The notes below the pieces were generated by a model, which was not told where the DNA came from, ran no database searches, and saw only the letters and a program-made list of their open reading frames with translations. A stretch of 64,000 nucleotides of DNA from an uncultured Alsobacter sp. (GTDB taxonomy: Bacteria > Pseudomonadota > Alphaproteobacteria > Rhizobiales > Beijerinckiaceae), in assembly GCF_945952055.1 (NCBI RefSeq), contig NZ_CAMFHB010000035.1, positions 1 through 64,000 of the forward strand, written 5' to 3'. How positions within the stretch are numbered: the first letter of the stretch is position 1; every line of letters starts with the position of its first letter. Positions 10,300-48,690 of this stretch are shown here, in pieces. Made by a program: the position numbers and the translations under genes.

Positions 10300-11966
10300 A
10301 CCGCTTCGCCGCCCTGCTCGATCGCCTGGCCTACGAATCCGGTCGCAATGCCAAGCTGCGGCTCCTGACGGATTATTTCCGCTCGACGCCGGATCCGGAG
10401 CGCGGCTTCGCGCTCGCGGCCACGGCCGGCAGCCTCGTCTTCGCCAATGCCAAGCCGGGCCTGATCCGCGCCCTCATCGCCGAGCGGACCGACCCCGTGC
10501 TGTTCGGGCTGAGCTACGACTACGTGGGCGATCTCTCCGAGACGGTGGCCCTGATGTGGCCCACGCCGGCGGGGCCCGGCCCCGGCCACAACCAGCCGCC
10601 GCCGACCCTGGCGGAGGTGGTCGAGAGGCTGCAGAACGTCGGCAAGAGCGAGTTGCCGGGGCTGCTCGCGCGCTGGCTCGACGGTCTCGACGAAACGGGG
10701 CGGTGGGCGCTTCTGAAGCTGATCACCGGCTCGCTGCGCATCGGCGTGTCCGCGCGCCTCGCCAAGAGCGCGGTGGCGGCGCTCGGCCCGCTCCAGCCCG
10801 ACGACATCGAGGAGGTCTGGCATGGCCTCGAGGCGCCCTACGAGGCGCTGTTCGCCTGGGCCGAGGGGCACGGCCCGCGGCCGGAGGCCGACGACCCGGC
10901 TCCCTTCCGGCCGCCCATGCTCGCCCATCCGATCGAGGATGGCGACTTCGACGCGCTCGACCCGTCGGCCATGACGGCCGAGTGGAAATGGGACGGCATC
11001 CGCGTGCAGGCGGTGGCCGGCCGCAGGCCCGACGGGCGCTTCGTGTCGCGGCTCTACTCGCGCACCGGCGACGACATCTCCCAGAGCTTCCCGGACCTCG
11101 CCGACGCGCTGCAGATGGACGCCGCCATCGACGGCGAGCTCCTCATCCTGCGCGAAGGCCGCGTCCAGTCGTTCAACGTGCTGCAGCAGCGCCTCAACCG
11201 GCAGTCCGTCTCGCCCAAGATGCTGGTCGACTATCCGGCCCATATCCGGGCCTACGACCTGCTGCACCTCGACGGCGAGGATCTGCGTCCCCTGCCCTTC
11301 CGCGAGCGGCGGGCGCGCCTGGAGGCCTTCGTCGCGGGCCTCGCCGAGCCGCGCATCGACGTCTCGCCGCTGATCGGCTTCGGCAGCTGGGACGAACTCG
11401 CCGCCGCGCGGGCCGACCCCGGCTCGGCCGGGGCGGGCGAGGACGCCGGGGCGGTCGAAGGCTGCATGATCAAGCGGGCCGACAGCCCCTACGTGCCGGG
11501 GCGTCCGAAGGGTCTCTGGTACAAGTGGAAGCACGACCCCTTCGTCATCGACGCCGTGCTCATGTATGCCCAGCGCGGCCACGGCAAGCGCTCGTCCTTC
11601 TACTCGGACTTCACCTTCGGCGTCTGGACCGGGGAAGAGGGACCGGGCGACCTCGTCCCGGTCGGCAAGGCCTATTTCGGCTTCACCGACGCCGAGCTGC
11701 AGGAGCTCGACCGCTTCGTCAGGCGCAACACGGTGAACCGCTTCGGTCCGGTGCGGGAGGTCGTGCACGCCCCGGACCAGGGTCTGGTCCTGGAGGTCGC
11801 CTTCGAAGGAATCGCCCGCTCCGCCCGCCACAAGTCGGGCGTCGCCATGCGCTTCCCGCGCGTCTCGCGGATCCGATGGGACAAGCCGCCCGGCGAGGCC
11901 GACCGCCTGCCCACCCTCGAACGGCTCATCGCCCGGCATGAAACCGGACAGGCGCGCAGCGCGTAG
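10296..11966 (+). CDS. ATP-dependent DNA ligase (Lhr-associated type)
   Basis: A 556-aa ligase. An N-terminal helical DNA-binding domain comes first (about residues 1-190). The nucleotidyltransferase domain has the adenylation motif EWKWDGIR (Lys is the AMP acceptor), then DGELLI, a GCMIKRADSPY motif and the KWK motif LWYKWKHDP. An OB-fold C-terminus follows. It joins DNA nicks with ATP. Coupled to the exonuclease by an ATGA overlap, it probably acts as the sealing step of the four-protein repair pathway that includes the helicase and PdeM across the divergent gap. Confidence 0.93.
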   Translation: MNRFAALLDRLAYESGRNAKLRLLTDYFRSTPDPERGFALAATAGSLVFANAKPGLIRALIAERTDPVLFGLSYDYVGDLSETVALMWPTPAGPGPGHNQPPPTLAEVVERLQNVGKSELPGLLARWLDGLDETGRWALLKLITGSLRIGVSARLAKSAVAALGPLQPDDIEEVWHGLEAPYEALFAWAEGHGPRPEADDPAPFRPPMLAHPIEDGDFDALDPSAMTAEWKWDGIRVQAVAGRRPDGRFVSRLYSRTGDDISQSFPDLADALQMDAAIDGELLILREGRVQSFNVLQQRLNRQSVSPKMLVDYPAHIRAYDLLHLDGEDLRPLPFRERRARLEAFVAGLAEPRIDVSPLIGFGSWDELAAARADPGSAGAGEDAGAVEGCMIKRADSPYVPGRPKGLWYKWKHDPFVIDAVLMYAQRGHGKRSSFYSDFTFGVWTGEEGPGDLVPVGKAYFGFTDAELQELDRFVRRNTVNRFGPVREVVHAPDQGLVLEVAFEGIARSARHKSGVAMRFPRVSRIRWDKPPGEADRLPTLERLIARHETGQARSA

Positions 11967-34378: not shown

Positions 34379-35005
34379 ATGTCCGTGAAGCCTGGCCCAG
34401 ACCCGTCAGCCAAGGAAAAAGCCCTGGCACGCCGGCTGGCGCTGCCCCTCCTCGCCTTCGTCTTCGGGGCCGTGGCCCTGCTGATGGCCGTCGCCGTCGT
34501 GTTCATGCCCCGGGAAGGCCAGCAGGTGGCCGCCGTCGGCGGTCCGTTCAGCCTGGTCGATCAGGACGGCAAGGCGTTCACCGAGAAGGACCTGCTTGGA
34601 AAGCCGAGCCTCGTCTTCTTCGGCTTCACGCATTGCCCCGACGTCTGCCCCACGACGCTCTACGAGATCACGCAGGTCTATTCCGAACTCGCCGCCAAGG
34701 GAGACAAGGTCCGGGCGGTGTTCGTGACCGTCGATCCCGCGCGTGACACGCCGGAGCTCATGAAGACCTATCTGTCGAGCTTCGACCCGCACATCGTCGG
34801 CCTCAGCGGCAGCCAGGCCGCGGTCGACGGCATCATGAAGGCCTATCGTGTCTTCGCACGGAAGGTGCCCGGCGAGAACGGCAACTACACGATGGACCAC
34901 ACCGCCCTCGTCTACCTGATGGACGCGAAGGGGCGTTTCGTGGGGGCGTTCAATCTCCAGAAGTCCCCCGCCGAAGCGGCGAAGGAACTCGAGCGCTACA
35001 TGTAG
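34379..35005 (+). CDS. SCO family protein (SCO1/SenC)
   Basis: A 208-aa protein with an N-terminal membrane anchor (LPLLAFVFGAVALLMAVAVVF) and a thioredoxin-like domain with the copper-binding motif FTHCPDVCPTT and the distal His in TMDHTALVYL. It delivers copper to the CuA site of cytochrome c oxidase from the outer face of the inner membrane. The C-terminus overlaps the 3' end of the split glycosyltransferase gene on the other strand by 10 bp. Confidence 0.92.
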   Translation: MSVKPGPDPSAKEKALARRLALPLLAFVFGAVALLMAVAVVFMPREGQQVAAVGGPFSLVDQDGKAFTEKDLLGKPSLVFFGFTHCPDVCPTTLYEITQVYSELAAKGDKVRAVFVTVDPARDTPELMKTYLSSFDPHIVGLSGSQAAVDGIMKAYRVFARKVPGENGNYTMDHTALVYLMDAKGRFVGAFNLQKSPAEAAKELERYM

Positions 35006-35430
35006 CCGGGAGGGCCCGCCGGCCCGTGCTCGGTCTTGTTCCAGCGAAACGGGGCATCGAGCAGCTCCCACAGCGCCACCCAGGCCGCGACGGAAATCAG
35101 GGCGAGGTAGGGCAGCGCGAGGAGCGCGTCGAGCGCGCCCAGCCGGATCGCCCTTCGCCTGGCGGCGATCCAGGCGGGTCCGGCGACCGTCACCGCCCCG
35201 GCCGCCAGCACCACCCACGACAGCGCCACGCCCGAGAGGTCGAGCATGCCGTCGGGGTGCAGGCTGCTGCCGTCGACGAGGCGGACGACCAGCGATCCCA
35301 TGAAGAGCGGGGCGCCGATGGCGGCGAGCACCGTGCCCCACCCGTGCGTGACCACGGCCAGCCGCGCCACCGGCCCGCCCGGCCAGGGCTTGCGCCACTC
35401 CCGACTGTGGACCAGGGCAGTCTGCATCCA
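34996..35430 (-). pseudogene. Glycosyltransferase, C-terminal fragment (split by the island)
   Basis: The minus-strand frame GWMQTALVHSREW... through several membrane segments (LFMGSLVVRLV, WVVLAAGAVTVAG, LPYLALISVAAWVAL) to the stop at 34996 is the missing C-terminus of the glycosyltransferase at 47289-48690. Joining the two at the shared GCATCCA gives exactly 610 codons in one frame, with a continuous RVRWMKGWMQT motif. The fragment has no start of its own; the ORF-track entry reads back into the island. The coding half is probably silent. Confidence 0.92.
35424..35430. repeat. attL core (GCATCCA)
   Basis: This is the left copy of the 7-bp direct repeat at the island boundary. Rejoining the island's two ends gives the attP core AAAGGcGCATCCAaCCTTT, where AAAGG and CCTTT are perfect inverted arms around the overlap, as in core sites of tyrosine recombinases. 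Confidence 0.8.
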
Positions 35431-35551
35431 ACCTTTTCGCTTCGGTTTCGGAAGTGATCCGCCTGTTGCTGAATGTTTCGATTGCCAAGCGTTTTCAAGC
35501 ACGTAATTGTTCGTCCGCGTTTCCCGATGTTCCGGTCGGTTCCGGAATTCT

Positions 35552-35570
35552 GTTGCGACCGTGTTGCGAC
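35552..35570 (+). repeat. Left pair of integrase arm-type repeats
   Basis: GTTGCGAC occurs twice, 11 bp start to start, between attL and the integrase gene. The same pair with the same spacing and orientation occurs near the right end (47196-47214). Paired octamers one helical turn apart near both ends suggest arm-binding sites for the integrase N-terminal domain. Confidence 0.7.
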
Positions 35571-35595
35571 GGAGGGATCTCGGAGGATCGACGCG

Positions 35596-36867
35596 ATGCC
35601 GAAAAGCGGTTCCGGAGCGACGCGGGAGGCCCGGCCTCTCACCTCCCGGGCGATTGAGGCGATGCTGCCGGAGGCGGCCCCCTATCGGGTCCCGGATGCA
35701 CGGACGAAGGGCCTTGCGGTGCGGGTCGCCACTGACGGCAAGAGGACCTTCGACCTTGCGTTCCGCGTCAAGCACGGGAAGGTCCGGCGGACCTCGCTCG
35801 GTGAGTGGCCGGGGACCACGCTCGAACAGGCCCGCGACCGCGCACATGCCCTCACCTCGGCAGCCCGGAAGGGGGTCGACCTGCTCGCGGACGAGGAGGA
35901 GGCTCGCATCGAGGCCGCGCGGCGGGTGACGGTCTCGGCCCTCATCGCGGAGTACATGAAGCGGTCCGTTCGGAAGAATGGGTTGAGGACAGCGGACGAG
36001 ATCGAGCGCCGACTGAAGCGGGCGCTCGCCTCGCTCCTCGACACCCGGGCGGCCGACGTGAAGCGGCGGGACATTCGGGACGTCCTCGACGCAGTGTCGG
36101 ACGAGGGCCTCGAACGAGAGGCTGAGAAGCGCCGGCAGGTCATTGGCGCGATGTTCAAGTGGGCAGTTGGGCGCGACCTGATCGAGAATGACCCCACGGC
36201 AGGGTTGAAGGCGTACGACACCGGGGCGCCTCGGGACCGGGTCCTGTCGGACGACGAGGTCCGCGCCCTGTGGGCTTGGTTGGATGCAGCAGACCTCCCC
36301 GGAGGCCACCCGGAGGTCCTCCGGTTGCAACTCCTGCTTGGTGCGCGCTGCGGCGAGGTCGCCGGCATCGAGGCCGGCGAGGTTGATCGAGAGACGTGGG
36401 TCTGGACGCTCCCGGCCGCGCGCTCGAAGAACAAGAGGCAGCGCCTCACCCCGCTGGTCGGTCTCGCCCGGGAGATCGTCGAGGCCAACTGGCCGGCGAG
36501 CGGACGCGGGCCGCTTTTCACGACCGAGACGGGGCGCGCGATGCGCGCATCGAACGTGGGCCAGAGCCTCTTGAACCGAGAGGACCGGCTCCCGATCGCA
36601 AAGTTCACAACCCACGATCTCAGGAGAACCGCCGCGACGAAGCTCGCCGAGATGGGCATACAACTCGACCTTGTCGCGGCCATCGTCGGTCACGAGGCGG
36701 GCGGGAAGAACGTCCGGACGCTCGTCCGCCACTACGTTCACACCGACCAGATCGAGAGAAAGGCTACGGCGCTTCTCGCGTGGGATGCCCGAGTGCGTGA
36801 GATCGTCGAGGACCGCCAGCCGGCGTCGAAGGTGGTCGACTTCGCTTCTGCCCGGGGCGTCGCATGA
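35596..36867 (+). CDS. int: Tyrosine-type site-specific integrase (DUF4102 arm-binding type)
   Basis: A 423-aa integrase. The N-terminal DUF4102-like arm-binding domain (DARTKGLAVRVATDG, TSLGEWPGTTLEQARDRA) precedes a core-binding helical domain and the catalytic domain with Arg in LLLGARCGEVAG, His-x-x-Arg in THDLRRTAAT, His in VGHEAG and the nucleophile Tyr in VRHYVH. All catalytic residues are present, so it should be active. The ATG at 35596 has GGAGGA upstream; the ORF-track start at 35473 would read through the arm repeats. Its stop overlaps the next gene (ATGA). Confidence 0.93.
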   Translation: MPKSGSGATREARPLTSRAIEAMLPEAAPYRVPDARTKGLAVRVATDGKRTFDLAFRVKHGKVRRTSLGEWPGTTLEQARDRAHALTSAARKGVDLLADEEEARIEAARRVTVSALIAEYMKRSVRKNGLRTADEIERRLKRALASLLDTRAADVKRRDIRDVLDAVSDEGLEREAEKRRQVIGAMFKWAVGRDLIENDPTAGLKAYDTGAPRDRVLSDDEVRALWAWLDAADLPGGHPEVLRLQLLLGARCGEVAGIEAGEVDRETWVWTLPAARSKNKRQRLTPLVGLAREIVEANWPASGRGPLFTTETGRAMRASNVGQSLLNREDRLPIAKFTTHDLRRTAATKLAEMGIQLDLVAAIVGHEAGGKNVRTLVRHYVHTDQIERKATALLAWDARVREIVEDRQPASKVVDFASARGVA

Positions 36868-37484
36868 GAGGCCCTCCGCTCGTCACCGACAAGGCCGCGC
36901 GGTGGGCCATCGATGTCCCGGTCGCGGATCTCGAACGGCTCCTCTCCCTTCCCGAAGGCGTCCTGCGGGACCGAATGCGGTCCGTCGTGTACGCGTGCAA
37001 CATGCAGGCACTGCGAGCGGACGACGCCGCAAGCAGGCGTCGCGCCGTCCGGATGGCGTCAGCCGCTCGTCCGGTTCTCGAACGGTTGCAAGGCATCCTC
37101 GACGAGCCTGAGACGCTCCGCGACCTACGCCGAGCGTCGGCGGCCCTTCGGAGAGCAGGGCACGGGCAGGCCGAAGTGATCGACGGGATAGTCGCGGCGC
37201 TCCTGACCGTCCCTGCCACGCTGGCCGTGGTCGAGCACGTCTCCGAAGGCAAGCGCGGCACGCCGGGGAAGGTCTGGCAGGTTGAGTTCCTCAAGGCGCT
37301 CGCCCGGGAATGGACGCAGGTCACTCGGCTGCCGCCCGCGAAGGCTTCGCGCGCTGCCGCCTCGCGGCGTTCACCCCGCGCCCTGTTCCTTCCGTTTGCC
37401 GAAGCAGCACTGGCTGACGTTGGCGTCGAGGTGAAGAACGCTGCGCGAGCTATCAAGCACGCCCTATCCGATGTGGACAAATAA
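36864..37484 (+). CDS. Island protein of unknown function, coupled to integrase
   Basis: A 206-aa, mainly helical, Arg/Ala-rich protein without signal or membrane segment (AARWAIDVPVADLERLLSLPEGVLRDRM). It overlaps the integrase stop by ATGA and should be translated with it. A role in integration control or as an accessory protein is possible, but nothing in the sequence identifies it. Confidence 0.7.
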   Translation: MRGPPLVTDKAARWAIDVPVADLERLLSLPEGVLRDRMRSVVYACNMQALRADDAASRRRAVRMASAARPVLERLQGILDEPETLRDLRRASAALRRAGHGQAEVIDGIVAALLTVPATLAVVEHVSEGKRGTPGKVWQVEFLKALAREWTQVTRLPPAKASRAAASRRSPRALFLPFAEAALADVGVEVKNAARAIKHALSDVDK

Positions 37485-37657
37485 TCGGCGAGACGAGCGG
37501 TCAGTCTGCAACTCGGAAAATCCCTTGCCGCGATTGGTGTAGCGGCTCGATTGGGAAAAAACTTCGTCGGTGAATTTTTCGCCGTCGTTACAGGCGCTCA
37601 GAGTTCCGCGACCTTCCCGATGTCGCCGCGCCGTTTCGCGGCTCGAAGGGAAGCAAA

Positions 37658-37897
37658 ATGAACCACTCGAACAAGATCAGCGACAGCGGCGGCGACAGCC
37701 GTTCCGCCATCGCCCCGCGCCTCCTCACCGAGGAGCAGGCGCGCGCCGCGCTCGGCGGTATCAGCCGCACCACGATGCATCGCATGATGGTCGGCGGGCG
37801 CATCCGCGTCGTGAAGCTCGGACGCCTGAACATGGTGCCGGTCGAGGAGATCGACCGCGTCATTGCCGCCCTCCCGGCCGCGCGCGAGGTGGCCTGA
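37658..37897 (+). CDS. AlpA/excisionase-like helix-turn-helix protein
   Basis: A 79-aa MerR-type winged helix protein: LLTEEQARAALGGISRTTMHRMMVGGRIRVVKLG, then a second helix VEEIDRVIAAL. This is the helix-turn-helix_17 (excisionase/AlpA) pattern. In P4-like elements AlpA switches on excision and early genes. It starts the gene block after a 173-bp AT-richer gap and has a good AAGGGA ribosome site. Confidence 0.8.
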   Translation: MNHSNKISDSGGDSRSAIAPRLLTEEQARAALGGISRTTMHRMMVGGRIRVVKLGRLNMVPVEEIDRVIAALPAAREVA

Positions 37898-37899
37898 TC

Positions 37900-38181
37900 A
37901 TGGCGCGCACCGTGAAGAAGACCGAGACGGCCGGCGAGGTCTTCGCCCGGCTCGACGCGGCGAAGGTCGAAGCCCAGCGGGCCGTCCTCGCCGCCGCCGC
38001 GATCTACAGCCAGTTGCTCGCGATGTGGGACCTGCATTCCATCGAGGCCATCCATCAGCGTCCGGACTGGGACGAGGTGCTCACCGCCCGCGAGGCGGCC
38101 GACGAGGCGCGGATCGCTTTGGCGAAGCTCGGCGACGAGCGTGCCGCCGCGCAGGCGGCCGTGAACGGGGGGCAGCAGTGA
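37900..38181 (+). CDS. Small island protein, unknown
   Basis: A 93-aa helical protein (KTETAGEVFARLDAAKVEAQRAVLAAAAIYSQLL) whose ATG lies 2 bp behind the AlpA-like gene stop. It is rich in Ala, Glu and Arg and may form a coiled coil. No family is recognised. It shares its final base with the start of the next gene. Confidence 0.65.
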   Translation: MARTVKKTETAGEVFARLDAAKVEAQRAVLAAAAIYSQLLAMWDLHSIEAIHQRPDWDEVLTAREAADEARIALAKLGDERAAAQAAVNGGQQ

Positions 38182-38816
38182 TGGCCTCCCGGTTCTTCAA
38201 GTCGATCCCGGGCGGCGCTGTGTCGCTCGCCGAGCGCGTCGCCGCGATCGTGGCGTCGCTGACCCCCAAGGCGTCCGCCGTGACCAAGGCGGGAGAGATC
38301 GTCGGTCTGGCGCGGCAGGTTGCCGAGGAGCGGCCGAAGCAGCAGGCTGAACTCGACGCGGAAGCGGACGAGGCCGAGCGGGCGGCGATCCGCGAGGCTG
38401 GCCTGCTCGCCGTCGGGCTCACGACGGACGCGAGCGCCGTCGAGGCCAAGCGGGCGGACGCGAGCGTGAAGCGGACCACCGCCCTCGCCGGGAAGGTCGC
38501 GGCGCAGGCCGACGCGGACGTCGTCAGGATCGCCGAGGAGCGCCGCCGCGACGCCGGCCGCGCGCTCCACGAGGCGATGGAGGCCGAGATCGCCCCGCTC
38601 CGCGAGGAGGCGTTGGCGCAGTTCCGCGAGACCGTCGCCGCGCACGTGCGGGCGCACGACCTCGCCGCTGCCCTCGGTCTGCCCGTCGGTGAGCGTCCCC
38701 AGATCATCGACCCCATCAGCCACGAGCGCCTCACCCCGCCCGAGCCCGACGCCGAGGCTCGGGCCATCGCCGAGGCGCTCGAACCCGTGCGGTGGCAGAT
38801 CCGCGTCACCGCCTGA
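38181..38816 (+). CDS. Coiled-coil island protein, unknown
   Basis: A 211-aa protein with a long Ala/Glu/Arg-rich helical central region (residues about 50-160, for example RREERRRDAGRALHEAMEAE-like heptads) and a short C-terminal segment with RPQIIDPISHERLTPP. No signal peptide or membrane span. The ATG at 38181 overlaps the preceding stop by one base. The function is not known; the position before the replication gene suggests a role in the early operon. Confidence 0.65.
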   Translation: MASRFFKSIPGGAVSLAERVAAIVASLTPKASAVTKAGEIVGLARQVAEERPKQQAELDAEADEAERAAIREAGLLAVGLTTDASAVEAKRADASVKRTTALAGKVAAQADADVVRIAEERRRDAGRALHEAMEAEIAPLREEALAQFRETVAAHVRAHDLAAALGLPVGERPQIIDPISHERLTPPEPDAEARAIAEALEPVRWQIRVTA

Positions 38817-38994
38817 ACCTATCCCCATCCGGCCCGGCAGCCCTCCGGAGGCCTTCGCATCGAGGCCAACAACGGCACGCCCCCTCCCGGCCGGGCCACG
38901 TTCTTTGGACGGGTCAAGGGGGCGAACGGTGCAGGCCGGCGGCGCGACGAGCGTGGCGTGCCGCCGGCCAGACCTTCCAACGAGAACGGACGCG

Positions 38995-39974
38995 ATGACC
39001 GAGCCCATCACCCTCTTAGCAAAGTGGCGTCTCGCGCAGGCCATTGCGGCTGACCCGAACACGCCTCCGTCGGCTCTCCGGGTCGCCCTCCGGCTGCTCG
39101 ACCACCTGAACGGCAAGACGGGCCGCTGCGACCCCGCCCACGCGACAATCGGTGCCGCCCTTGGCATCGGCCGCCGCACCGTTGTCGATGCAATCCACGC
39201 GCTTGAACGGGCCGGTTGGCTGCGGGTCGAGCGTGGCGGCGGCGATCCGAACGCCCCGAACGGCTACTCGACGAACTCGTATCAGTTCGCCGTGGAGAGG
39301 CTCGGCGAGGTTCCCGAGGCCGGACGGGACGACGATCCCCCCCGTGCAGAAACTTGCACCCCGGGGGGTGCGGAAGTTCGCACCTCCCCCCGTGCGGGAA
39401 TTCGCACCCCCCCGGTGGTCATTTCCGCACCCCCCCGGGGTGCGGAAATCCGCACACAAACTATGAACAGGTCTACCGGGAAGAGAAACCGGGAACGGGA
39501 AACACTTATCCCCCTTCCCCCTCACCTCGTTCTTCGCGCGACCGGGCGACCGGACTGCCGGACGAACTCCGGGCCGACTTCTCCCTCTTCTGGTCGATCT
39601 ATCCGCGCCGTGAGCGCGTCGGGGCGGCCGAGGCTGCTTTCGCTCAGGCGGTCGCCAACGGCGCGGACCCCGCCGACCTCATCCACGGGGTCCGCGCCTA
39701 TGCCCGGTCTGTGAAGGGGAGCGAGCCGAAGTACGTCGCGGGTGCTGCCCGCTGGCTCGCCGAGCGTCGCTGGACGGACGAGCCGCCGGCCCCGTCTACC
39801 GGCCCCGACCCCATCACACTGGACGGCGACGGCAACATCGTCGCCGTCCCGCCTACGGCGCAAGCCGCACCTCGTCGGCGCATGACACCTGCCGAGGAAA
39901 TCCTCTCCGCCTTCACCCCCGATGCTCTCGAAGAAATGGACGCCAATTGGAGGGCTCGCCGCAATGGCCACTGA
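38995..39974 (+). CDS. Lambda-O-like replication initiator, split over two frames
   Basis: The N-terminal 110 residues carry a helix-turn-helix of the replication-protein type (NTPPSALRVALRLLDHLNG, HATIGAALGIGRRTVVDAIHALERAGWL). The C-terminal part (DELRADFSLFWSIYPRRE ... YVAGAARWLAERRW) is in another frame, as in phage and plasmid replication proteins with a FWxxYPRR motif. The frame changes somewhere in the C- and G-run-rich block around 39338-39540, which also holds five iterons. A one-base difference would fuse the frames; slippage, decay or base-calling error are possible. Frame 1 alone ends at 39714. The likely role is binding the iterons to start replication of the element. Confidence 0.7.
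39344..39455. repeat. Five 24-bp iterons inside the replication gene (putative origin)
   Basis: Five 16-bp near-palindromes occur at 39344, 39368, 39392, 39415 and 39440 (steps 24, 24, 23, 25). The examples GTGCGGAAGTTCGCAC and GTGCGGAAATCCGCAC are separated by C/G runs; the fourth is the least conserved. This matches the arrangement of lambda ori inside gene O. Each could form a hairpin. Confidence 0.8.
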
Positions 39975-40551
39975 CATCGTCTCGTCGAACTCCCGGACAG
40001 AACTCGCGCCGTACATCAAGGCTCACATCGCGACTGCGCACCGTCTACGCCAGCTCAAGGCGGAGATCAGCGTCGACGGAGGTCACCGGTACAACGAAAT
40101 CCGGGCGCTGGAATTGGTCCGCTCCGGCGAAGTCACCCGCGCCGGCATGCAGACGACGGTCGCGACCTTGACCACCGCGATCTACACGCCGTCCCCGCCC
40201 GTCTCGCTGCTCGCCGTCCTCGTGGAGCGAATGACGTCGCTGCCTCGTGCCAACGTCGATCTGGTCGCGTGGGCCCGGCACACGGTCGAGCTTCTCTCCG
40301 AGGAGGAGGTCGACGAGGACAGCGCCGAGGCTTGGTACGACGTTGCGGGCGGCTTCTCGGCCGCGATCGTTCACGTCGCGGCGACGAACATCCTTGCGAG
40401 CGAGCGATGGCTGCCTCCGCCCGCCGCTGTCCTCGAAGCCTGCAAGGCCGTCCGTCTCGCGCTGATCCACGACCTCTCGGTGGCCCGCTACTTCGAGAAG
40501 CTGGCCGCCAAGACGGACCCGGACGCCCCGGGCGTCTGGGATCTCGACTAA
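39964..40551 (+). CDS. Island protein following the replication gene, unknown
   Basis: A 195-aa helical protein (MATDIVSSNSRTELAPYIKAHIA ... LDLVAWARHTVELLSEEEVDED). Its start overlaps the end of the replication gene, so it is translationally coupled. By position it could be a helicase loader comparable to lambda P, but no P-loop or other motif is visible. The ATG at 39964 is preferred to 39922. Confidence 0.65.
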   Translation: MATDIVSSNSRTELAPYIKAHIATAHRLRQLKAEISVDGGHRYNEIRALELVRSGEVTRAGMQTTVATLTTAIYTPSPPVSLLAVLVERMTSLPRANVDLVAWARHTVELLSEEEVDEDSAEAWYDVAGGFSAAIVHVAATNILASERWLPPPAAVLEACKAVRLALIHDLSVARYFEKLAAKTDPDAPGVWDLD

Positions 40552-40614
40552 CGCACCACCAACCCGATCGCGCGCCAGAGGGGCGCGCGGCATAGCCTGA
40601 AAGGAGGCCGCAAC

Positions 40615-40872
40615 TTGCAGCCCATCACCGCCAACGAACTCACCTCCGGGACGCTCGGGCGAGCCCTTGAGATGCGAGCCACGACCACCCGTGGCCCCGT
40701 CTCGAAAGAGTTCATCGCTGGGGCTCTCGCCCTGCTCCGCGTCAAGCCCGACGCGCTCGCGGAAAACCTCTTCGCCGCCGGCCTCTGCGCCGAAGCGGAC
40801 GTCCCCGTCGACTTCGGCAAGACCGAACGGAGCGGTGACTTCACCATCATCACGAGCCGCAACCACCGCTGA
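40615..40872 (+). CDS. Small island protein with TTG start
   Basis: An 85-aa protein beginning TTG with a strong AAAGGAGG ribosome site 6 bp ahead, which decides the start. It is Ala/Leu-rich with two short helices (GPVSKEFIAGALALLRVKPDALAE). The function is unknown. Confidence 0.65.
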   Translation: MQPITANELTSGTLGRALEMRATTTRGPVSKEFIAGALALLRVKPDALAENLFAAGLCAEADVPVDFGKTERSGDFTIITSRNHR

Positions 40873-40883
40873 AGGAACACAAC

Positions 40884-41276
40884 ATGACCACCCTCGAAAT
40901 CACCGCCAACAACGCCGCCCGCGTCGGCGCGGCCATCGCCCTCGCCGCCAAGCAGGGGCACGCCCTTTCCCCCGAACTCATGAGCGGCCTTTCCGCCGGA
41001 GCCGAGCACTCCCCCGGCTTCACGGCCGAGCAAATCGTCGACTTCGGTCTCGACTTCCAGCGTGGCGTCCTCGAAACCCGAACGCGCCTCTGCGACGTCG
41101 GCGCTGTCGCCCTCGCCGCCGGACGGTTCGACGAATTCAAGGTGCTGCTCGGCAAGGGCGTCGCCATCGAGGTGATCGAGACGGTGTTCGCGATCTACAG
41201 CGCGCCGAAGGCGGCCGGTCAGGGCACGAGCCCGCAGACCGGATGGCCTTCCTTCGGCGACCGCCGCCAGCACTGA
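40884..41276 (+). CDS. Small island protein, unknown
   Basis: A 130-aa helical protein (TAEQIVDFGLDFQRGVLETRTRLCDVGAVALAAGRFDEF). The start at 40884 is preceded by AAGGAA and lies 11 bp behind the previous stop, so it is in the same operon. No family is recognised. Confidence 0.6.
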   Translation: MTTLEITANNAARVGAAIALAAKQGHALSPELMSGLSAGAEHSPGFTAEQIVDFGLDFQRGVLETRTRLCDVGAVALAAGRFDEFKVLLGKGVAIEVIETVFAIYSAPKAAGQGTSPQTGWPSFGDRRQH

Positions 41277-41337
41277 CCTCCACCGCCGTCCGCCTCGCGG
41301 GCGGCGGTCCCCCTGTCTCACCGAATGGAGAACGCAC

Positions 41338-41724
41338 ATGATCGACGACATGTGGACAGACGAGAGGCTCGCGCAGGTGGCGGCGATGACGCCGACCGAT
41401 CGCGCTCACGAATTCGATGCGAGGGTCGCGGCGGGCCACCGACTGGCCGAGGTTCGGCTCGCCTTCAACACGCCGAGGTTGAACGCGGCCGAGATCCGGG
41501 AGGCGTTCATCACCGGGGCGGTGGGCTTTGAGGCGTTCGAGGCGCACGACATCTTCCCGCTCCTCGCCGCTCCGGCCACGGACGCCCTTCCCCGCCCCGT
41601 TCCCCCTGCTCCTCCCCCGCCGTCCCCCGCCGAGCGCGACGACGGGGCCGACGGACGCGACGCGTGGGCGCGGGCCGTCGAGCGCATCAACGCCCGGCTG
41701 GCGCAGCCGCAGAGCGGGCCCTGA
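41338..41724 (+). CDS. Small island protein with Pro-rich linker
   Basis: A 128-aa protein with an N-terminal helical part (MIDDMWTDERLAQVAAMTPTDRAHEFDARVA), a run of prolines ([13 protein letters not shown]) and a C-terminal helix (WARAVERINARLAQ). The ATG at 41338 has GGAGA upstream. The function is unknown; in phages such small proteins often precede tail genes as chaperones, but here that is only a positional idea. Confidence 0.6.
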   Translation: MIDDMWTDERLAQVAAMTPTDRAHEFDARVAAGHRLAEVRLAFNTPRLNAAEIREAFITGAVGFEAFEAHDIFPLLAAPATDALPRPVPPAPPPPSPAERDDGADGRDAWARAVERINARLAQPQSGP

Positions 41725-41911
41725 GGCAGGCTGGGGGTCTCGGCGGGTAGCCCCGTAGCGGGCCGAGTGCTCGAGGCCCCTCACTCACGCCCCCTCAGCG
41801 ACGGCGGGGCGGCCGGAGGGGGAGGCCCCCGGAAGTGGACGGGTCCTCCCGGCGGTCTCGGTCGGGTGCGGGCGTAGGCGGCCGCAGTTTTCGAGCGTTT
41901 TTGGGGAAATG

Positions 41912-41925
41912 AAAACCGCGGTTTT
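41912..41925. promoter_or_regulatory. Perfect 14-bp palindrome upstream of the tape-measure gene
   Basis: AAAACCGCGGTTTT lies in an AT-richer patch of the 284-bp gap before the tape-measure gene. It is a likely operator for a dimeric regulator, perhaps one controlling the late gene. The rest of the gap is GC-rich and shows no ORF of substance. Confidence 0.5.
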
Positions 41926-42008
41926 ATTCAGCGAGATCGACGCTCGTCATCAGCAAAAACAGCGACTTAGCGTCCCCAAATGGCAACTTCGGAAAGGACA
42001 GGAACACC

Positions 42009-44474
42009 GTGACGAAGATTATTGAAGCACAGGCGATCATCTCCGCGAAGGACAACACGGGCGGGGCGTTTGCCGCCGTCTCGAAGAAGCTGACGGACAT
42101 CTCCAGAGCGGGGAAAGTCGTCGGCGAGAGCATGTCCGGGATGGGTCGGCAGATTGGTCTCATGCAGGACAAGCTTGCGAAGATCCAAAACTTCAGGGCG
42201 ATGCACACCGGCCTCGTCGAGGCTCGGACGAAGTTCCGGGACGCGCAGCGCGAGGTCGAGCGGCTCGGGCGGGCGGTCGGGGAGGCCGCGAAGCCGAGCC
42301 GGGATCTGGCTCGCGCCTATGAACAGGCGCAGCGCGCGGTCAAGGGAGCATCGCAGGCGTTCAAGCAACAGGCCGAGGCGGTCTCGGCGGCGAAGCGCGA
42401 ACTCGGGTCTGCCGGGGTCCCGATCAATCGTCTCGCGAGCGCGCAGGATCACCTCCGCAAGTCGATCGACAGCGCGAATGCGAGCCTCGCGAGGCAGGCG
42501 TCCTACCGGCGGCTCATTCAGGCTTCGCCCGACGTCCGCTCGCCCGTCGCGACCCGCGCCGGCGTCGGCTCCGGGGCGGGTGACCTCGTCGGCGGCGTCG
42601 CCGGAGTGGTCGGAGCCGGCAAGCTCGGTCAGGTCGCCGGGAGGGCCGTCGAGGGCTGGACGACGATGGACGAGGCGCTTCGGCGTCAACAGGCCATCAT
42701 GTCGATCTCGCCCGAGACGCAGGGCCCGCTTAAGGCGCAAGCGTTCCGGATCGGTCAGGACACGCGGTTTACGAACCCTGACGTGGTCCGGGCGCAGACC
42801 ACGATCTCGACCCGTCTCCCGAAAGAAGCGCAGACCGTCGGCGTCGTCTCGGGGATCACCGAGGCCGCGCGCGACTACGCCCTCGCGATGGGCACGACGA
42901 TGGACGAGGGAGCCGAGGCGATCATCGCCCGGATGCTCGCTCGTCGGATGGACATGAGCACGCCCGAGGCGGCCGGCGCGAGCGCGCGGCACGCCGCGAA
43001 CCGGCTCGTCCAGCGCGCGAAGATCTCGGGCGCGAAGCACGACGACCTGATGGGCTCGACGAAGTTCGGCGCGGCCCCGGGGCAGGTCGCCGGGTTCTCG
43101 GAAGAGTTTCAGGACGCGTTCGAGGCGCAACTTCAGCGTATCGGTTACGAGGGCTCGATGACCGGCAACTTCGCCCGGGCAGCGGCCATGAAGCTTTCGA
43201 CGCCGACGACGAAGGGGCTCGCGGCCATCGCGGCGAGCGGCCTTCGGTACGACGACTACGTCAAGCCGGGGACGAACTTCTCGGCCGGCGGCCTCTCCGA
43301 CATGCTGAAACTCAAGTTCGGCCGAGCGATCTCGGGCGATCAGATCTCGAAGCTGAACGAGATCTTCGACGACGAGACCGTCACGGGCGACCGGGGCGAG
43401 TTCGTCTCGCGGGTCTCGGGCGTCCTCGGGGAGAGCTTCGCCCGGAAGACCAAAAGCGGGAAGGTGAACGCGCAGGACGCGGAGCGGATCGCGAAGACCG
43501 CCGACCAGTTCTACACCCTCAACGCGCAGGGCGTTCAATCCGAGCGCCTGATGGCCGACCTCGTCAAGCAGGGGCTCTCGCCGGCCGTCGCTCGATACCT
43601 CTTCGGGCAAGAGCACGGCGGTCGAGCGCAGTCGCTCAATTACGAGCAACTGCTCCGCGACCAGCAGACGATGAAGGACACGCCGGGGAACCGGGCCGCG
43701 AAGATCGGCGAGGACATCAACGCGGGTGCCTATGGCGCTTATCAGCGGATGATCGGCTCGATCGAGACCTTCACGACCCGGCTCGGCGAGGCGAACGACC
43801 GGATCATGACCGTCGGCTTCGACAAGCTCGGGAACGCGATCGACGCGATCTCGAACCTGCCGAACCCGATCGTCGCGTTCGGAACGGCGGTCACGGCGGC
43901 AACCGGCGGCCTCGTGGCTCTGGCGGGAGCCTCCCGGATCGCGGCCTTCGCGGGGATCCCGGGCGCGGCCACGGTCGGAGCGGCGGCCGGCGGCATCCTC
44001 GCGTTCGGCGGCCGAGTGGTTGGTGCGCTCGTCCCGCCCCTCGGGGCGGCGGCGACCGGCTACTACCTCGGGAACAAGGCCGGCGAGGGTCTCTCGGTCG
44101 TCGGCGAGGCCGCTGCCGGGAAGCACTGGACGCCGAAGGGCGACGCCGAGCGCGCCGACCTGAAGGAGCGGGCCGCGAAGCTCGAAATGATGATCAAGAA
44201 CACCGAGGAGCGGTCGAAGCTCCCGGACGTGGCGGCGGTCGTCACCGGGCCGATGAGGTCGGAGCTTCAGGACATCCGGAACCGCCTCAATTCCGAGGTG
44301 AAGGTGCAGGGGACCGCCGAAGTGAAGGTGACGATCGAGCCCTCGGGAGCCTTGAGCGATCTCCTCAAGCGGGCCGAGAGCGCCGGGAAGATGGCGATCT
44401 CAAACGGTCCCGGGTCGAACGGGACGACGATGCCCGAGGCCGCCCCTCCGCGTCGGGGACGTGGGGACCTCTGA
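42009..44474 (+). CDS. Phage tail tape-measure protein
   Basis: An 821-aa protein beginning GTG. The N-terminal 200 residues are long amphipathic helices (AREVERLGRAVGEA-like heptads, ARAYEQAQRAVKGASQAFKQQ) of the tape-measure type. A central globular part follows, then near residues 615-690 a Gly/Ala-rich hydrophobic region (AFGTAVTAATGGLVALAG, GAATVGAAAGGILAF). This is the pattern of TP901-type tape-measure proteins, which set tail length and enter the target cell envelope. It is the only structural gene in the island. The frame is intact across 2.5 kb with no stops. Confidence 0.85.
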   Translation: MTKIIEAQAIISAKDNTGGAFAAVSKKLTDISRAGKVVGESMSGMGRQIGLMQDKLAKIQNFRAMHTGLVEARTKFRDAQREVERLGRAVGEAAKPSRDLARAYEQAQRAVKGASQAFKQQAEAVSAAKRELGSAGVPINRLASAQDHLRKSIDSANASLARQASYRRLIQASPDVRSPVATRAGVGSGAGDLVGGVAGVVGAGKLGQVAGRAVEGWTTMDEALRRQQAIMSISPETQGPLKAQAFRIGQDTRFTNPDVVRAQTTISTRLPKEAQTVGVVSGITEAARDYALAMGTTMDEGAEAIIARMLARRMDMSTPEAAGASARHAANRLVQRAKISGAKHDDLMGSTKFGAAPGQVAGFSEEFQDAFEAQLQRIGYEGSMTGNFARAAAMKLSTPTTKGLAAIAASGLRYDDYVKPGTNFSAGGLSDMLKLKFGRAISGDQISKLNEIFDDETVTGDRGEFVSRVSGVLGESFARKTKSGKVNAQDAERIAKTADQFYTLNAQGVQSERLMADLVKQGLSPAVARYLFGQEHGGRAQSLNYEQLLRDQQTMKDTPGNRAAKIGEDINAGAYGAYQRMIGSIETFTTRLGEANDRIMTVGFDKLGNAIDAISNLPNPIVAFGTAVTAATGGLVALAGASRIAAFAGIPGAATVGAAAGGILAFGGRVVGALVPPLGAAATGYYLGNKAGEGLSVVGEAAAGKHWTPKGDAERADLKERAAKLEMMIKNTEERSKLPDVAAVVTGPMRSELQDIRNRLNSEVKVQGTAEVKVTIEPSGALSDLLKRAESAGKMAISNGPGSNGTTMPEAAPPRRGRGDL

Positions 44475-44979
44475 CCCCTGCTCCCGGATAGCCCCGCGCC
44501 TTCGCAGGCGCGGGCGCTGGCGGGCTCGGACAGTGCCTCGGCTACTCGGGTGGCGGATCGCCCACGCGGCCCCCACGGGCCTCCGTTGCGAGAGGCGTTT
44601 AAGCAGAACCGGGATCACCGCCGAGATCGACGAAAACCTGATCCGCCGGAGCCTCTCCCCCGCCATCCGCTCGCGCCTGACGGACGAGCGGAAGGCGATC
44701 TTCGAGGAGGAGCATCCGGAGACGAAGCACGGTGGGGATCGGCGTTCAAGTGCTCAAGTTGAGCACTTGAACGTGACGGACCGCTTCACTCGCGAGGTCT
44801 CGCGCCGGACCGGCCGGTCGGAGCAGAGCGTCCGCCGCGACGCCCAGCGCGGGAAGATCCTCGGCCCCGCTCTCCTCGACCGGGTCGCCGGGACGAGCCT
44901 CGACAAGGGCTCGAAGCTCGACGCCCTCGCGAAGCTCCCGGAGCCCGAGTGGAAGGCTACTGTGTTGCTCGAAACTTGA
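44461..44979 (+). pseudogene. ParB-type partition protein, C-terminal fragment
   Basis: From about 44611 the frame encodes AEIDENLIRRSLSPA, ERKAIFEEEHPETKHGGDRR, FTREVSRRTGRSEQSVRRDAQRG and TSLDKGSKLDALAKLPEPE, the central and C-terminal part of ParB/Srx-like proteins found on phages and islands. The nuclease domain that should precede it is missing; the ORF's first 50 residues are Arg-rich and out of keeping. It ends early at the stop at 44979. It is best read as a deleted remnant. Confidence 0.7.
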
Positions 44980-45105
44980 GGTCGCGCCATGTTCCCGCAG
45001 GACTTGCTCGTTCCGTCGATGGTCGCGCACTGATTTGGAAGACTTTCAGGGGACAGGTCTCGATCAAGGGCCTCGGGGTTTGCCCGGCAACTTAAAGGGT
45101 GGGGA

Positions 45106-45351
45106 ATGACCGACGAACTCGATCCTCTCGACGAACTCCTCGACCTGATCTCTCCGCGCTTCCGGGTGGCGCACGTAGGCTACGAGTGGCACGTCGTGCT
45201 CCACACGCCCGCCTCTCACATTCCGCCGACCCGGCCGGAATTCGACACAGTCGTCCAGAGCTTCCCGCACCCGGATGGCAAGCCGGAGGGCGAGGCGAAG
45301 TCGAAGGCGATCCGCCTCGCCCGGGCGTTGAACGCCGTCTTGCGAATGTAG
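45106..45351 (+). CDS. Small island protein, unknown
   Basis: An 81-aa acidic protein (MTDELDPLDELLDLISPRFRVAHVGYEWHV) with a strong AAGGGTGGGG ribosome site 3-10 bp ahead of the ATG. A C-terminal helix is Lys/Arg-rich. No family is recognised. Confidence 0.65.
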   Translation: MTDELDPLDELLDLISPRFRVAHVGYEWHVVLHTPASHIPPTRPEFDTVVQSFPHPDGKPEGEAKSKAIRLARALNAVLRM

Positions 45352-45413
45352 ACGGGGGGAGGCTTTGGGCCTACCCGCTCCACTTCACACCCTTCATTGG
45401 GGAGCCACCCATC

Positions 45414-45869
45414 ATGAAGCTCGACAAGGCCGTCGCCGCTCTTGAGGTCGCCGGAGCCCGCAAGCGGGTCCGCGCGGCCGAGGCGGAGGCGCGAGCGACG
45501 AAGCTCTCGGCGAGGCTCCGACTGTCCCGGCAGCGCGAGGCTCCCCGCCGCCGCTACCTCGCCCCCGACGTGATCCGCGCGGCGATGCTTGCCGGTGAGG
45601 GACGCTCTGCCGCCGAGATCGCGACGGAGCTTGGCGGCACCACCGCCCGCAGGGTCGCGGCCCTCTGCCACAAGCACGGCATCCGGCTCGTGCCGAAGCG
45701 CAATAGCGAGGCGTGTGTCCGCGTCGTCATTCCCCGGTCTTCCCTCGACGCCCTCGCCCGGATCTCCGTCGATCGAGACGAGACACCGGAAATCGTCATG
45801 GCCTCCGCGCTGGCCGCTCTCGCGGCCGAGCCGACCGTGCTCGCGAACCTGCTCGACGACGACGCATGA
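45414..45869 (+). CDS. Small helix-turn-helix island protein
   Basis: A 151-aa protein. The N-terminal 45 residues are basic and helical, followed by a GcrA- or resolvase-like helix-turn-helix (YLAPDVIRAAMLAGEGRSAAEIATELGG), a basic strand (HGIRLVPK), and an acidic ribbon-helix-like C-terminus (VVIPRSSLDALARISVDRDETPE). It may be a regulator of the right-hand genes. The ATG at 45414 has GGGGAG upstream; the ORF-track start runs through another gene. Confidence 0.7.
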   Translation: MKLDKAVAALEVAGARKRVRAAEAEARATKLSARLRLSRQREAPRRRYLAPDVIRAAMLAGEGRSAAEIATELGGTTARRVAALCHKHGIRLVPKRNSEACVRVVIPRSSLDALARISVDRDETPEIVMASALAALAAEPTVLANLLDDDA

Positions 45870-46003
45870 CATTCTGGGGGGAACGCGGTCCTCGGACCCG
45901 AAATCCCCCAGTATTCCCCCACCTGAAATCCCCCGAAATCTCCATATTGCGCAACGGCTGCGCTCACTCGATGCTTTGGATCGTCTCGAACAGGAGCGAT
46001 CCC

Positions 46004-46264
46004 ATGTCATTCATCTCCGCGATCTCCACCTTCTACCTTTCCGAGCGCCGCGACGCCCGCCTCCGGGACGATCCCAACGCCACGCACGAACAGGTCCACG
46101 CCGCGATCGACGCCTCGCGGGCGGCGATCGACGCCGTGGCCTCGATCGTCCCCCGATCGCCCGAGGAGCGTGACGCCGCTCTCGGGCTCTTGCAGGACCT
46201 CACGGCGGCCGGGGAGTGGCAGCAGCAGGGGGCGAGGATCAGGGCGAACCTGTCGGGGCGGTGA
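46004..46264 (+). CDS. Small island protein, unknown
   Basis: An 86-aa helical protein (MSFISAISTFYLSERRDARLRDD). The ATG at 46004 has AGGAG at suitable spacing; the longer ORF-track version overlaps the preceding gene with a low-quality N-terminus. Its end overlaps the end of the reversed HEPN-like gene by 26 bp. The function is unknown. Confidence 0.6.
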   Translation: MSFISAISTFYLSERRDARLRDDPNATHEQVHAAIDASRAAIDAVASIVPRSPEERDAALGLLQDLTAAGEWQQQGARIRANLSGR

Positions 46265-47054
46265 GAGCGTCCCACTCCGCGTCGGCGAACAGCGCGAACC
46301 GCAGGAGTTGAACTCGGCAGGTATCGGCCTCGGCGTCGGTGATCGCGGTGGCGCGTCCGTGCCCCGCCTCGTCGCGCCAGACCGCAAGCAGGCCGACGAA
46401 GCTTTCGAGAGGCTCGCGCAGACTGCCCTTGAGGCGGGAGCCGATGAGGTCGGTCATCTTCTTCCGCCCCTGCGCCGAGCGGTAGTCCCGCAGGACCGCG
46501 TCCTCGTCCCCCGTCTTCGCGATTGCCAGCGCGAGGAGGATCGCCTCCGCCGCCGCCCCGCACATGACGCAGGCCGCGAGGTATCTCCCGGCGCGGTAGC
46601 ACCCGATCGCCTCCTCGGCCCGTTGCATGAAGCCGGGGCCGAACCGCCGGCCGGGACCCGCGATCACGTCCATGAACCGGGAGGGGTCTCGCGGAACGCT
46701 CTCCGGGCGAGCCGCGATCCACTTGCGGCCGAGGGCCGTCAGGGCGAAGCCGCCGTCTATCGTCCCCCCTATGCGCCCGCCGTCGACGATGACGGGGCCG
46801 GGTCTAAGGACGCCCATTCGGCATAGCTCGGCGACCGCGTCGGCGACGCTGATCAGGTAGGGGCGTTGGCGATCCGTGTCGTCGTGCCAATTCCCCACCC
46901 CTCCCCCTGATCGCCAGAGAGCATCGGCGACGCTGGGGATGAAAAGGTCGAAGCCTTGATCGCCCTGAGGGCGGCGCAGGGCATAGGGGTCGGGCGCGCT
47001 CTTCAACCTCTCGCAGACGAAGTCGAAGGCGACGTCGAAGTCGACAGTGTCCAT
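46239..47054 (-). CDS. HEPN-like cargo protein with Rx4H motif (possible defence RNase)
   Basis: A 271-aa protein, reversed relative to the rest of the island and last before attR. The C-terminal half is helical with CYRAGRYLAACVMCGAAAEAILLALA, similar to HEPN/DUF4145-type domains, and later WRDEAGHGRA gives the R-x4-H motif with a polar residue after Arg, the active-site pattern of HEPN ribonucleases. The N-terminal half may be a sensor (PYLISVADAVAELCRMGVL, DGGFALTALG resembles a winged helix). The ATG at 47054 has AAGGAGA upstream. HEPN RNases are common in toxin and abortive-infection systems, so a defence role is inferred. Confidence 0.55.
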   Translation of the reverse strand: MDTVDFDVAFDFVCERLKSAPDPYALRRPQGDQGFDLFIPSVADALWRSGGGVGNWHDDTDRQRPYLISVADAVAELCRMGVLRPGPVIVDGGRIGGTIDGGFALTALGRKWIAARPESVPRDPSRFMDVIAGPGRRFGPGFMQRAEEAIGCYRAGRYLAACVMCGAAAEAILLALAIAKTGDEDAVLRDYRSAQGRKKMTDLIGSRLKGSLREPLESFVGLLAVWRDEAGHGRATAITDAEADTCRVQLLRFALFADAEWDALTAPTGSP

Positions 47055-47195
47055 TCCGTCTCCTTGGGTTGGTGGCCGAAGGTATGCCGCTCGGGCGGGC
47101 GTAGGAAAGCGCCCCCGCGCCCGGGGTAGGACGAGCGCGGGGGGCTCCCGCTGCTCCCGAAGGGGTCGATCCGGGAGACGCGAGCTTGTGCAGTT

Positions 47196-47214
47196 GTTGC
47201 GACGGCGTTGCGAC
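47196..47214 (+). repeat. Right pair of integrase arm-type repeats
   Basis: GTTGCGAC occurs at 47196 and again at 47207, the same spacing of 11 bp and the same strand as the pair at 35552. It is located 74 bp inside the attR core. Confidence 0.7.
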
Positions 47215-47288
47215 GGGGGCGTTGCTCGGCGGCAACATCGGGACGATCGCACTGCAATGATTGGGAAATTTCTGACGTCGCCAAAGGC

Positions 47289-47295
47289 GCATCCA
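47289..47295. repeat. attR core (GCATCCA)
   Basis: This is the right copy of the boundary repeat; see the entry at 35424. The host sequence resumes at 47296 with GCCCTTCATCC, the codons for WMKG of the glycosyltransferase on the minus strand. Confidence 0.8.
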
Positions 47296-48690
47296 GCCCT
47301 TCATCCACCGCACGCGCTGCGGAAACCATCGCCGCAGGGTCGCGGGCGCCTCCTCCAGCGTGGTCGACGCCAGCATCGCGGTCCGGAACCCGCGCCGCGC
47401 CAGGCGGAGCCCGACGTCGGCGTCCTCCGTCACGTTCCAGGCGTCCCAGCCGCCCGCGGTGATCAGGGCCCGGCGCCGGAAGTGATTGGAGGTGCCGCCG
47501 AGCGGAACGGGCACCGCGAGCCGTGTCATCCCCGGCAGGGTCACGTCGAAAAGCATCGCGTATTCGAGGCGGAACAGGCGCGCCAGCCATCCGTCGCCGC
47601 CATTGTGGATGGCCAGCGAGGCCTGCAGGCAGCCGACGTCCTCGCCCAGCCGGGCGAAGGTGGCGGCTGAAAGCCGCAACTGCGCCGGCTCGGGGCGGTC
47701 CTCGGCGTCGTAGACGACGAGCAGGTCCCCACGCGTCAACGCGAGGCCGATGTTCAGGGCCCGGGGCTTCGTCCGCGGAGTGCCGTCCGGGCACGTCACG
47801 GTGCGCATGCCCGTCGGCAGGAGGAGGCGCGACAGGGACGCCCGGGTCAGCCGGTCTCCCGCCTCGACGAGAAGCAGGATCTCCAGGCGGGCCCGCGGAT
47901 AGTCCAGCCGCGCCAGGGCCGCGACCAACCCGCGCACGACCGCGTCCCCCTCGCGGTAGAGCGGCACGAGCACGGTGTAGGTGGGAACAGGGCGGTCGTG
48001 CGGCGCCGTGGCCCGATCGCGCACCCGTGGCTCGCCGGCCGCGGCCAGGCGCAGCGACATCGCCGACAGGAACAGAAGACCGAGGACGGCCTGCAGGATG
48101 GCGAGCGCCGCGCCGGGGTCGATGGCCGACCCCGCGGCCGACAGCGCGACGCAGGCGAGGCCGGTCCGGGCCTCGCGCGCGGTCGCCTCGCTCCTGTACG
48201 ACGCGCTGCCCGATGCCTCCGGCAGGCCGTCCGCGCCGTGGCTCGCCACGGCAGCGGCCGACCCCGCCAGCACGGCCGCCTCGAGGCGCCCGGGCGTGGT
48301 GACCGCGAAGTCCCGCGGCGCGCGCCCGGCCAGGGAGAGACCGATGAGCACCCTGATCGCCGCGGCGCGGGGCGCCACCACGACGCGATGGCCCAGGCCG
48401 GGCACCGCCCGCGCATGGCCGGTGGCGATGATGACCGGCACGTCGGCGGCCTCGCAGACGACCCTCGGCGTCGCCACGAACGGAAACCCGCACTCGCCGG
48501 CAAGGGCACGGTAGAAACCGTCCTCCGAGATCGCGCCGGACGCGATGAGGACCCTCTCGGTGCTGGCGCCCGTCTTGCGCGCCTCGATGGCCGCGCCGGC
48601 CAGTTGCAGGGCCGAGACGCCGTGGCCCATGAGGAACATCAGGTCTCGCGCGTGCAGGCGATGGGGATCGGGATCGGGATCGTGGATCAT
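47289..48690 (-). pseudogene. Glycosyltransferase family 2, N-terminal fragment (split by the island)
   Basis: The minus-strand frame from the ATG at 48690 has an N-terminal GspE-N-like domain (HARDLMFLMGHGVS, GASTERVLIASGAISEDGFYRALA) and membrane segments. A GT-A domain follows, with VLVPLYREGD, VVYDAEDRPEP (DxD), GGTSNHFRRRAL, TEDADVGLRL and the QxxRW motif QRVRWMKGW. At that point the island interrupts it; the frame continues into island sequence to a stop at 46804. The missing C-terminal domain is at 34996-35430. The reconstructed gene would encode 609 aa of a processive glycosyltransferase. Confidence 0.92.

Follow-up and report, generated by a model that had tools for sequence, protein, structure and literature searches.

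A standalone winged-helix HEPN protein at the end of an integrase island, a candidate anti-phage RNase

Introduction

Among bacterial suicide effectors HEPN RNases form one of the main classes, and to our knowledge the triggers of the standalone ones are mostly unknown. HEPN proteins typically work as dimers and use an arginine and a histidine to cut RNA (PMC3710099, PMC11087260), and the pattern was formulated in a survey of these proteins as R-x4-6-H in which the arginine is followed by a polar residue (N, D or H) (PMC3710099). The Tha protein of Staphylococcus phage 80alpha is a single-gene anti-phage HEPN RNase which is activated by phage tail proteins (PMC11087260). BxaP, a HEPN protein of the DUF4145 type, guards E. 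coli against phage T4 (PMC10799925), and DUF4145 proteins as well as the EC042_2821 HEPN family are present in restriction operons (PMC3710099). Here we describe a gene at the end of an integrase island in an uncultured Alsobacter sp., which codes for an N-terminal winged helix followed by a predicted HEPN domain (wHTH-HEPN), and compare it with these systems. The stretch of 64,000 nucleotides that was analysed is referred to below as the window.

Results

The wHTH-HEPN gene (46239..47054, minus strand) is complete and encodes 271 amino acids between an ATG start and a TGA stop, with an AAGGAG ribosome-binding site 5 nt 5′ of the ATG and a GC content by codon position of 0.71/0.53/0.85, which is a coding pattern. 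The intergenic stretch in front of the gene (47055..47288) contains this ribosome-binding site and presumably the promoter. A consensus scan, which is not suited to every high-GC organism, gave no sigma-70-like match within the stretch, and no strong operator-like palindrome was seen in front of the gene, only G+C-rich stems. Tail-to-tail with the HEPN gene lies an 86-aa ORF (46004..46264, plus strand), which has an AGGAG ribosome-binding site, a GC content by codon position of 0.68/0.53/0.91 and a 3′ end that shares 26 nt with the HEPN gene. Pfam, PHROGs and a further search returned neither relatives nor a family match for this ORF, whose product is a candidate regulator or inhibitor.

The island that carries the gene measures 11.9 kb (35424-47295), contains an integrase and interrupts a glycosyltransferase gene. 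No exact direct repeat of more than 11 bp was found at its ends, which were placed on account of a 7-bp core, GCATCCA, present as attL (35424..35430) and attR (47289..47295), together with the restored target gene: when the flanks are joined at the core, a single open glycosyltransferase frame results, '...RVRWMKGWMQTALVHSREW...'. The uninterrupted stretch in congeners reads 'RTRWQKGWMQTTLVHARG', and the congener sequence '...RWQKGWMQTTLVH...' aligns with '...RWMKGWMQTALVH...' in the restored frame of the window. The split gene, a family-2 glycosyltransferase on the minus strand, now occupies 34996-35430 and 47289-48690, with its N-terminal part continuing into island sequence. The tyrosine integrase (35473..36867, plus strand) is matched by Pfam Phage_integrase (6e-15) and PHROG 1 (1.5e-51), and the plus strand also carries the Xis/AlpA-like, replication-O-like and tape-measure-like genes and a ParB-like fragment. 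The HEPN gene is the rightmost one, and all other recognisable island genes run in the opposite direction; a reversed gene in the cargo position, the last of the island, is what the initial annotation had described.

Several further features of the island were observed. The tape-measure-like tail gene (42009-44474, plus strand, 821 aa) is accompanied by no other recognised tail genes in the island; a second copy was not found in the genome, and phage records held almost no relatives. The island is either a satellite equipped with a tape measure of its own or what remains of a prophage. The frame of the replication-O/DnaD-like gene (38989-39974, plus strand) appears to continue in another frame at about 39216-39974, which suggests a frameshift or two overlapping genes. 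No related island was found in the host's family with the 206-aa protein adjoining the integrase as the query.

Single-sequence Pfam scans of the window protein gave sub-cut-off matches to HEPN (E = 0.099) and DUF4145 (E = 0.27), the latter (PF13643) at 11.8 bits with a cut-off of 23.1; among 14 relatives the DUF4145 E-value reached 9e-4 at best, and the relative shown in full likewise stayed under the Pfam cut-off for DUF4145. The AlphaFold model, built from 12 sequences, has a four-helix HEPN fold at residues 124-265, with a pLDDT of about 90-97 across most of the domain (89-97 in blocks over residues 131-220). In Foldseek it matched the solved HEPN structures 2hsb (probability 1.00, TM 0.70 of the target), 2q00 (probability 1.00, TM 0.75, rmsd 3.2) and 1ufb (probability 0.97), with weak E-values of 0.4-0.8, probably because the query was the full two-domain chain. 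Viral proteins that appeared as fold matches were set aside as uninformative, and sequence searches of the PDB gave no credible match. A profile of the HEPN half aligned by hhalign with 15 genuine DUF4145 domains at 91% (E = 1.1e-6, 106 aligned columns), against 0.04-0.78% for the controls (reversed, column-shuffled and N-terminal). The C-terminal half, residues 121-271 (46242..46694, minus strand), is thus very probably a DUF4145-like HEPN domain, judging from the model, the profiles and the conserved motif described below. The initial annotation had proposed a DUF4145/HEPN-like helical domain and set a comparison of the predicted structure with HEPN folds beforehand as a check; the HEPN fold was found, the model fits the solved structures, and the likeness to DUF4145 is borne out as profile-profile homology. 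Because the window protein fails the Pfam cut-off it is filed beside DUF4145 and not inside it, as a sister and not a member.

The predicted RNase active site is the segment W226-R-D-E-A-G-H-G233 (46356..46379, minus strand), with R227 and H232 as the putative catalytic residues. Trp226, Arg227, His232 and Gly233 are invariant in all intact family members (16/16), the residue after the arginine is Asp or Asn in every aligned member, and the window motif R-D-E-A-G-H satisfies the R-x4-6-H rule. One genome scan had taken the motif as its search pattern, and the invariance was rechecked with motif-free queries. The R-x4-H pattern is kept in the two plasmid copies, at locus L014 (as WRNESGHG), at locus L021, which was recovered in a motif-free scan, and in two cyanobacterial copies found by a motif-free profile; a search artefact was accordingly rejected as the source of the invariance. 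Even the degenerate copies at L017 and L020 still carry WRDDAAHG. The arginine and histidine that had been singled out at the start are therefore conserved in all intact relatives across phyla, and the protein is likely a catalytic RNase.

The N-terminal half, residues 1-120 (46695..47054, minus strand), had been described as not recognised. A separate AlphaFold2 model of this half (pLDDT 79, pTM 0.76) gave top Foldseek matches that are nearly all winged helices (F-93, NsrR, PadR, 2obp and linker histone); those to F-93, NsrR and 2obp have probabilities of 0.94-0.97 and TM scores of about 0.4-0.6, with E-values of at least 0.05, so that no single match is significant. The winged helix is conserved across the family, and the earlier description is refined in that the half is recognisable by its fold. 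The domain carries a net charge of -2 to -6 in 12 of 13 members, with helix 3 and the following loop about neutral. Being net acidic, it is not an obvious DNA-binding domain, and it may as likely be a switch that binds protein or RNA.

The family comprises about 20 copies, all standalone genes, in Proteobacteria, Cyanobacteria, Deinococcus and a CPR bacterium. A Pseudanabaena and a Deinococcus plasmid yielded the first relatives, and the further ones came from 14 loci in genome contigs, with a reordered alignment as the query, from one viral contig and from two more cyanobacteria; when the genome contigs were scanned with a single sequence and the viral contigs with three, no relatives were found. 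Two weak matches in the host's family (G188 and G215) were dropped for partial coverage, one of them also having stops. The relatives align over their full length, with the N-terminal consensus 'AAWELCRRGILRPG ... GYSLTxFGxxWL' and the C-terminal consensus 'EAxxCYxAxxYLACCVMCGAAAESILL' and 'YWRDEAAHG'. The family is rare, the window's own copy being the only one among 385 genomes of the class and 399 of the phylum; true DUF4145 domains are present in 14 of 96 class genomes. Since the copies in Proteobacteria, Cyanobacteria, Deinococcus and the CPR bacterium nevertheless share about 30-40% of their residues with the window protein, the sequences indicate that the family spread horizontally. Every checked genome with a full-length copy has just one. 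Of the about 20 copies, those at L016, L017 and L020 are broken or reduced to remnants; the break at L016 may be a sequencing error, and broken copies are common for accessory cargo.

The neighbouring genes of the relatives were named by eye from translations, save where a tool is cited. An integrase adjoins the relative at L016, a tRNA-Glu lies about 250 bp from the one at L018, and a prophage and a tRNA-Pro are near that at L021. Toxin-antitoxin clusters surround the relatives at L007, L009, L053 and L054, and type I restriction is found near the one at L010. Convergent HNH-type and other genes adjoin the relative at L014 (8079-9866), where HigBA-like, Fic-like and integrase genes are also seen nearby by eye, and this neighbourhood resembles a cluster of defence or toxin genes. 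At L010 a co-directional 215-aa ORF (10774-11421) overlaps the stop of the relative and is a possible operon partner at that locus only. As the neighbours vary from locus to locus, no obligatory partner is seen; the relatives stand alone, in agreement with the single-gene unit originally suggested.

Single-sequence scans of the window protein against Pfam, PHROGs, PADLOC and NCBIfam gave nothing above cut-off, and with PADLOC 2.0 the window protein had no match and the 14 relatives a single one at chance level. The wHTH-HEPN family is new to Pfam, NCBIfam and PADLOC, and no description of a family with this architecture was found in the literature searched. Being absent from the defence library that was searched, it would be missed by surveys built on such libraries.

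Discussion

The locus is best explained as coding for a standalone wHTH-HEPN RNase effector that would cause abortive infection when a phage infects the cell, to which we assign a probability of about 0.52; an anti-phage role of this kind is the best single reading, at roughly even odds. In the resident state the protein would be held inactive. By analogy with HEPN biochemistry two chains would pair so that R227 and H232 of each lie in a cleft, and the RNA would be cut without metal. A product of the infecting phage would switch the RNase on via the N-terminal domain, cellular RNA would be degraded, and the phage burst would fail as the infected cell stops or dies, which would benefit both the island and its host. 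The antisense, tail-to-tail position of the gene with respect to the island's own operon might in turn lower its expression upon induction of the island. Because PADLOC lacks the family, the case for defence is drawn from the motif, the genomic contexts and the resemblance to Tha. Several observations count against an anti-phage role: PADLOC and NCBIfam gave no match, the genes around the relatives are of mixed kinds and do not form defence islands throughout, the toxin-antitoxin genes among them are common in cyanobacteria anyway, and the conservation across phyla is higher than is usual for fast-evolving phage sensors.

An alternative is that the HEPN protein acts as a toxin, kept in check by a partner (perhaps the 86-aa product), in a toxin-antitoxin or addiction module which stabilises the island. 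HEPN-MNT modules have toxins that are RNases of a like kind (PMC4621449, PMC3710099), toxin-antitoxin clusters enclose several relatives, and a small gene does overlap the 3′ end of the HEPN gene. However, the family members have no conserved partner gene beside them, the 86-aa ORF is without a detected relative, and full-length copies are found only once per checked genome, which makes such a module unlikely.

The fold of the N-terminal domain raises a second possibility. A winged helix followed by a helical C-terminal domain is also a common architecture of transcription regulators, and the N-terminal fold matches are mostly to DNA-binding ones, so that the winged helix could bind an operator or a partner, with the HEPN domain serving in dimerisation or ligand binding in the manner of MtlR. 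Non-catalytic HEPN families do exist (PMC3710099), but these lose the motif, whereas here R-x4-H is invariant together with the Asp or Asn after the arginine and the glycine after the histidine. The net acidic N-terminal half in 12/13 members and the lack of a strong operator-like palindrome before the gene, beyond the G+C-rich stems, likewise argue against a regulator or adaptor, which we consider quite unlikely. Finally, the gene might be a decaying passenger that no longer has a function, on a defective element that could be a remnant prophage and not a satellite. This would be in line with the lone tape-measure-like gene, the apparent continuation of the replication gene in another frame and the three broken or remnant copies among about 20 relatives, but it is improbable for a copy that is full length and has a ribosome-binding site, a coding pattern and all of the invariant residues.

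As this small and compact family is conserved across phyla and its N-terminal domain is defined, the sensor and the effector of the proposed abortive-infection RNase would be testable in one protein. The geometry of the gene on the island likewise makes it testable outside Staphylococcus by what means mobile elements escape RNases of their own.

Of the described systems, the DUF4145 proteins including BxaP have a HEPN half which, by profile comparison, is homologous to that of the window protein. The motifs differ, with R-x4-H and an invariant Trp and Gly in the window protein and mostly an R..GN...H spacing in the fetched DUF4145 set, and so do the N-terminal partner domains. Some members of the EC042_2821 family have, like the window protein, an N-terminal wHTH followed by a HEPN domain with an intact R-x4-6H (PMC3710099); compared by description, that family adds a restriction-nuclease-type domain and a zinc ribbon, whereas the window protein stops after the HEPN domain. 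DS-11 also fuses a regulatory domain to a HEPN RNase in one protein (PMC13092281), although its sensor, again compared by description, is a CBS nucleotide domain and not a winged helix.

Of the characterised systems Tha stands nearest, and the resemblance extends over both protein and locus. Tha-1 and the window protein (301 and 271 aa, respectively) are both single-gene products with a C-terminal HEPN domain and an R-x4-H motif, RNSIMH in Tha and RDEAGH in the window protein. Their HEPN halves align in register at 30.8 bits, above all 3000 shuffles, and the family profile places Tha-1 at rank 3 of 5001 (itself and 5000 shuffles); hhalign gave only 1.5%, and the similarity is weak, local and confined to the HEPN half, not running along the whole of Tha. 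Tha, with the forms Tha-1 and Tha-2, occurs in Staphylococcus aureus phages (PMC11087260) and has no recognisable N-terminal domain, whereas the window protein is found outside Staphylococcus and has a conserved winged helix. Each gene resides on an integrated phage element, phage-like in the case of the window, and each overlaps a small antisense gene tail-to-tail, by 64 nt for tha/ith in 80alpha and by 26 nt in the window. The HEPN gene and the 86-aa ORF could, very tentatively, be a tha/ith-like pair, in which the winged helix would be the receptor of a phage protein and the ORF an off-switch of the RNase when the island is mobilised; since the island has its own tape-measure-like gene, the trigger of such a receptor would possibly be a tail component. 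Such a pair, if real, would give a satellite outside Staphylococcus a self-tolerant HEPN defence with a new sensor domain. Taken by analogy, the comparison supports the notion that the window protein may work like Tha, without being a Tha.
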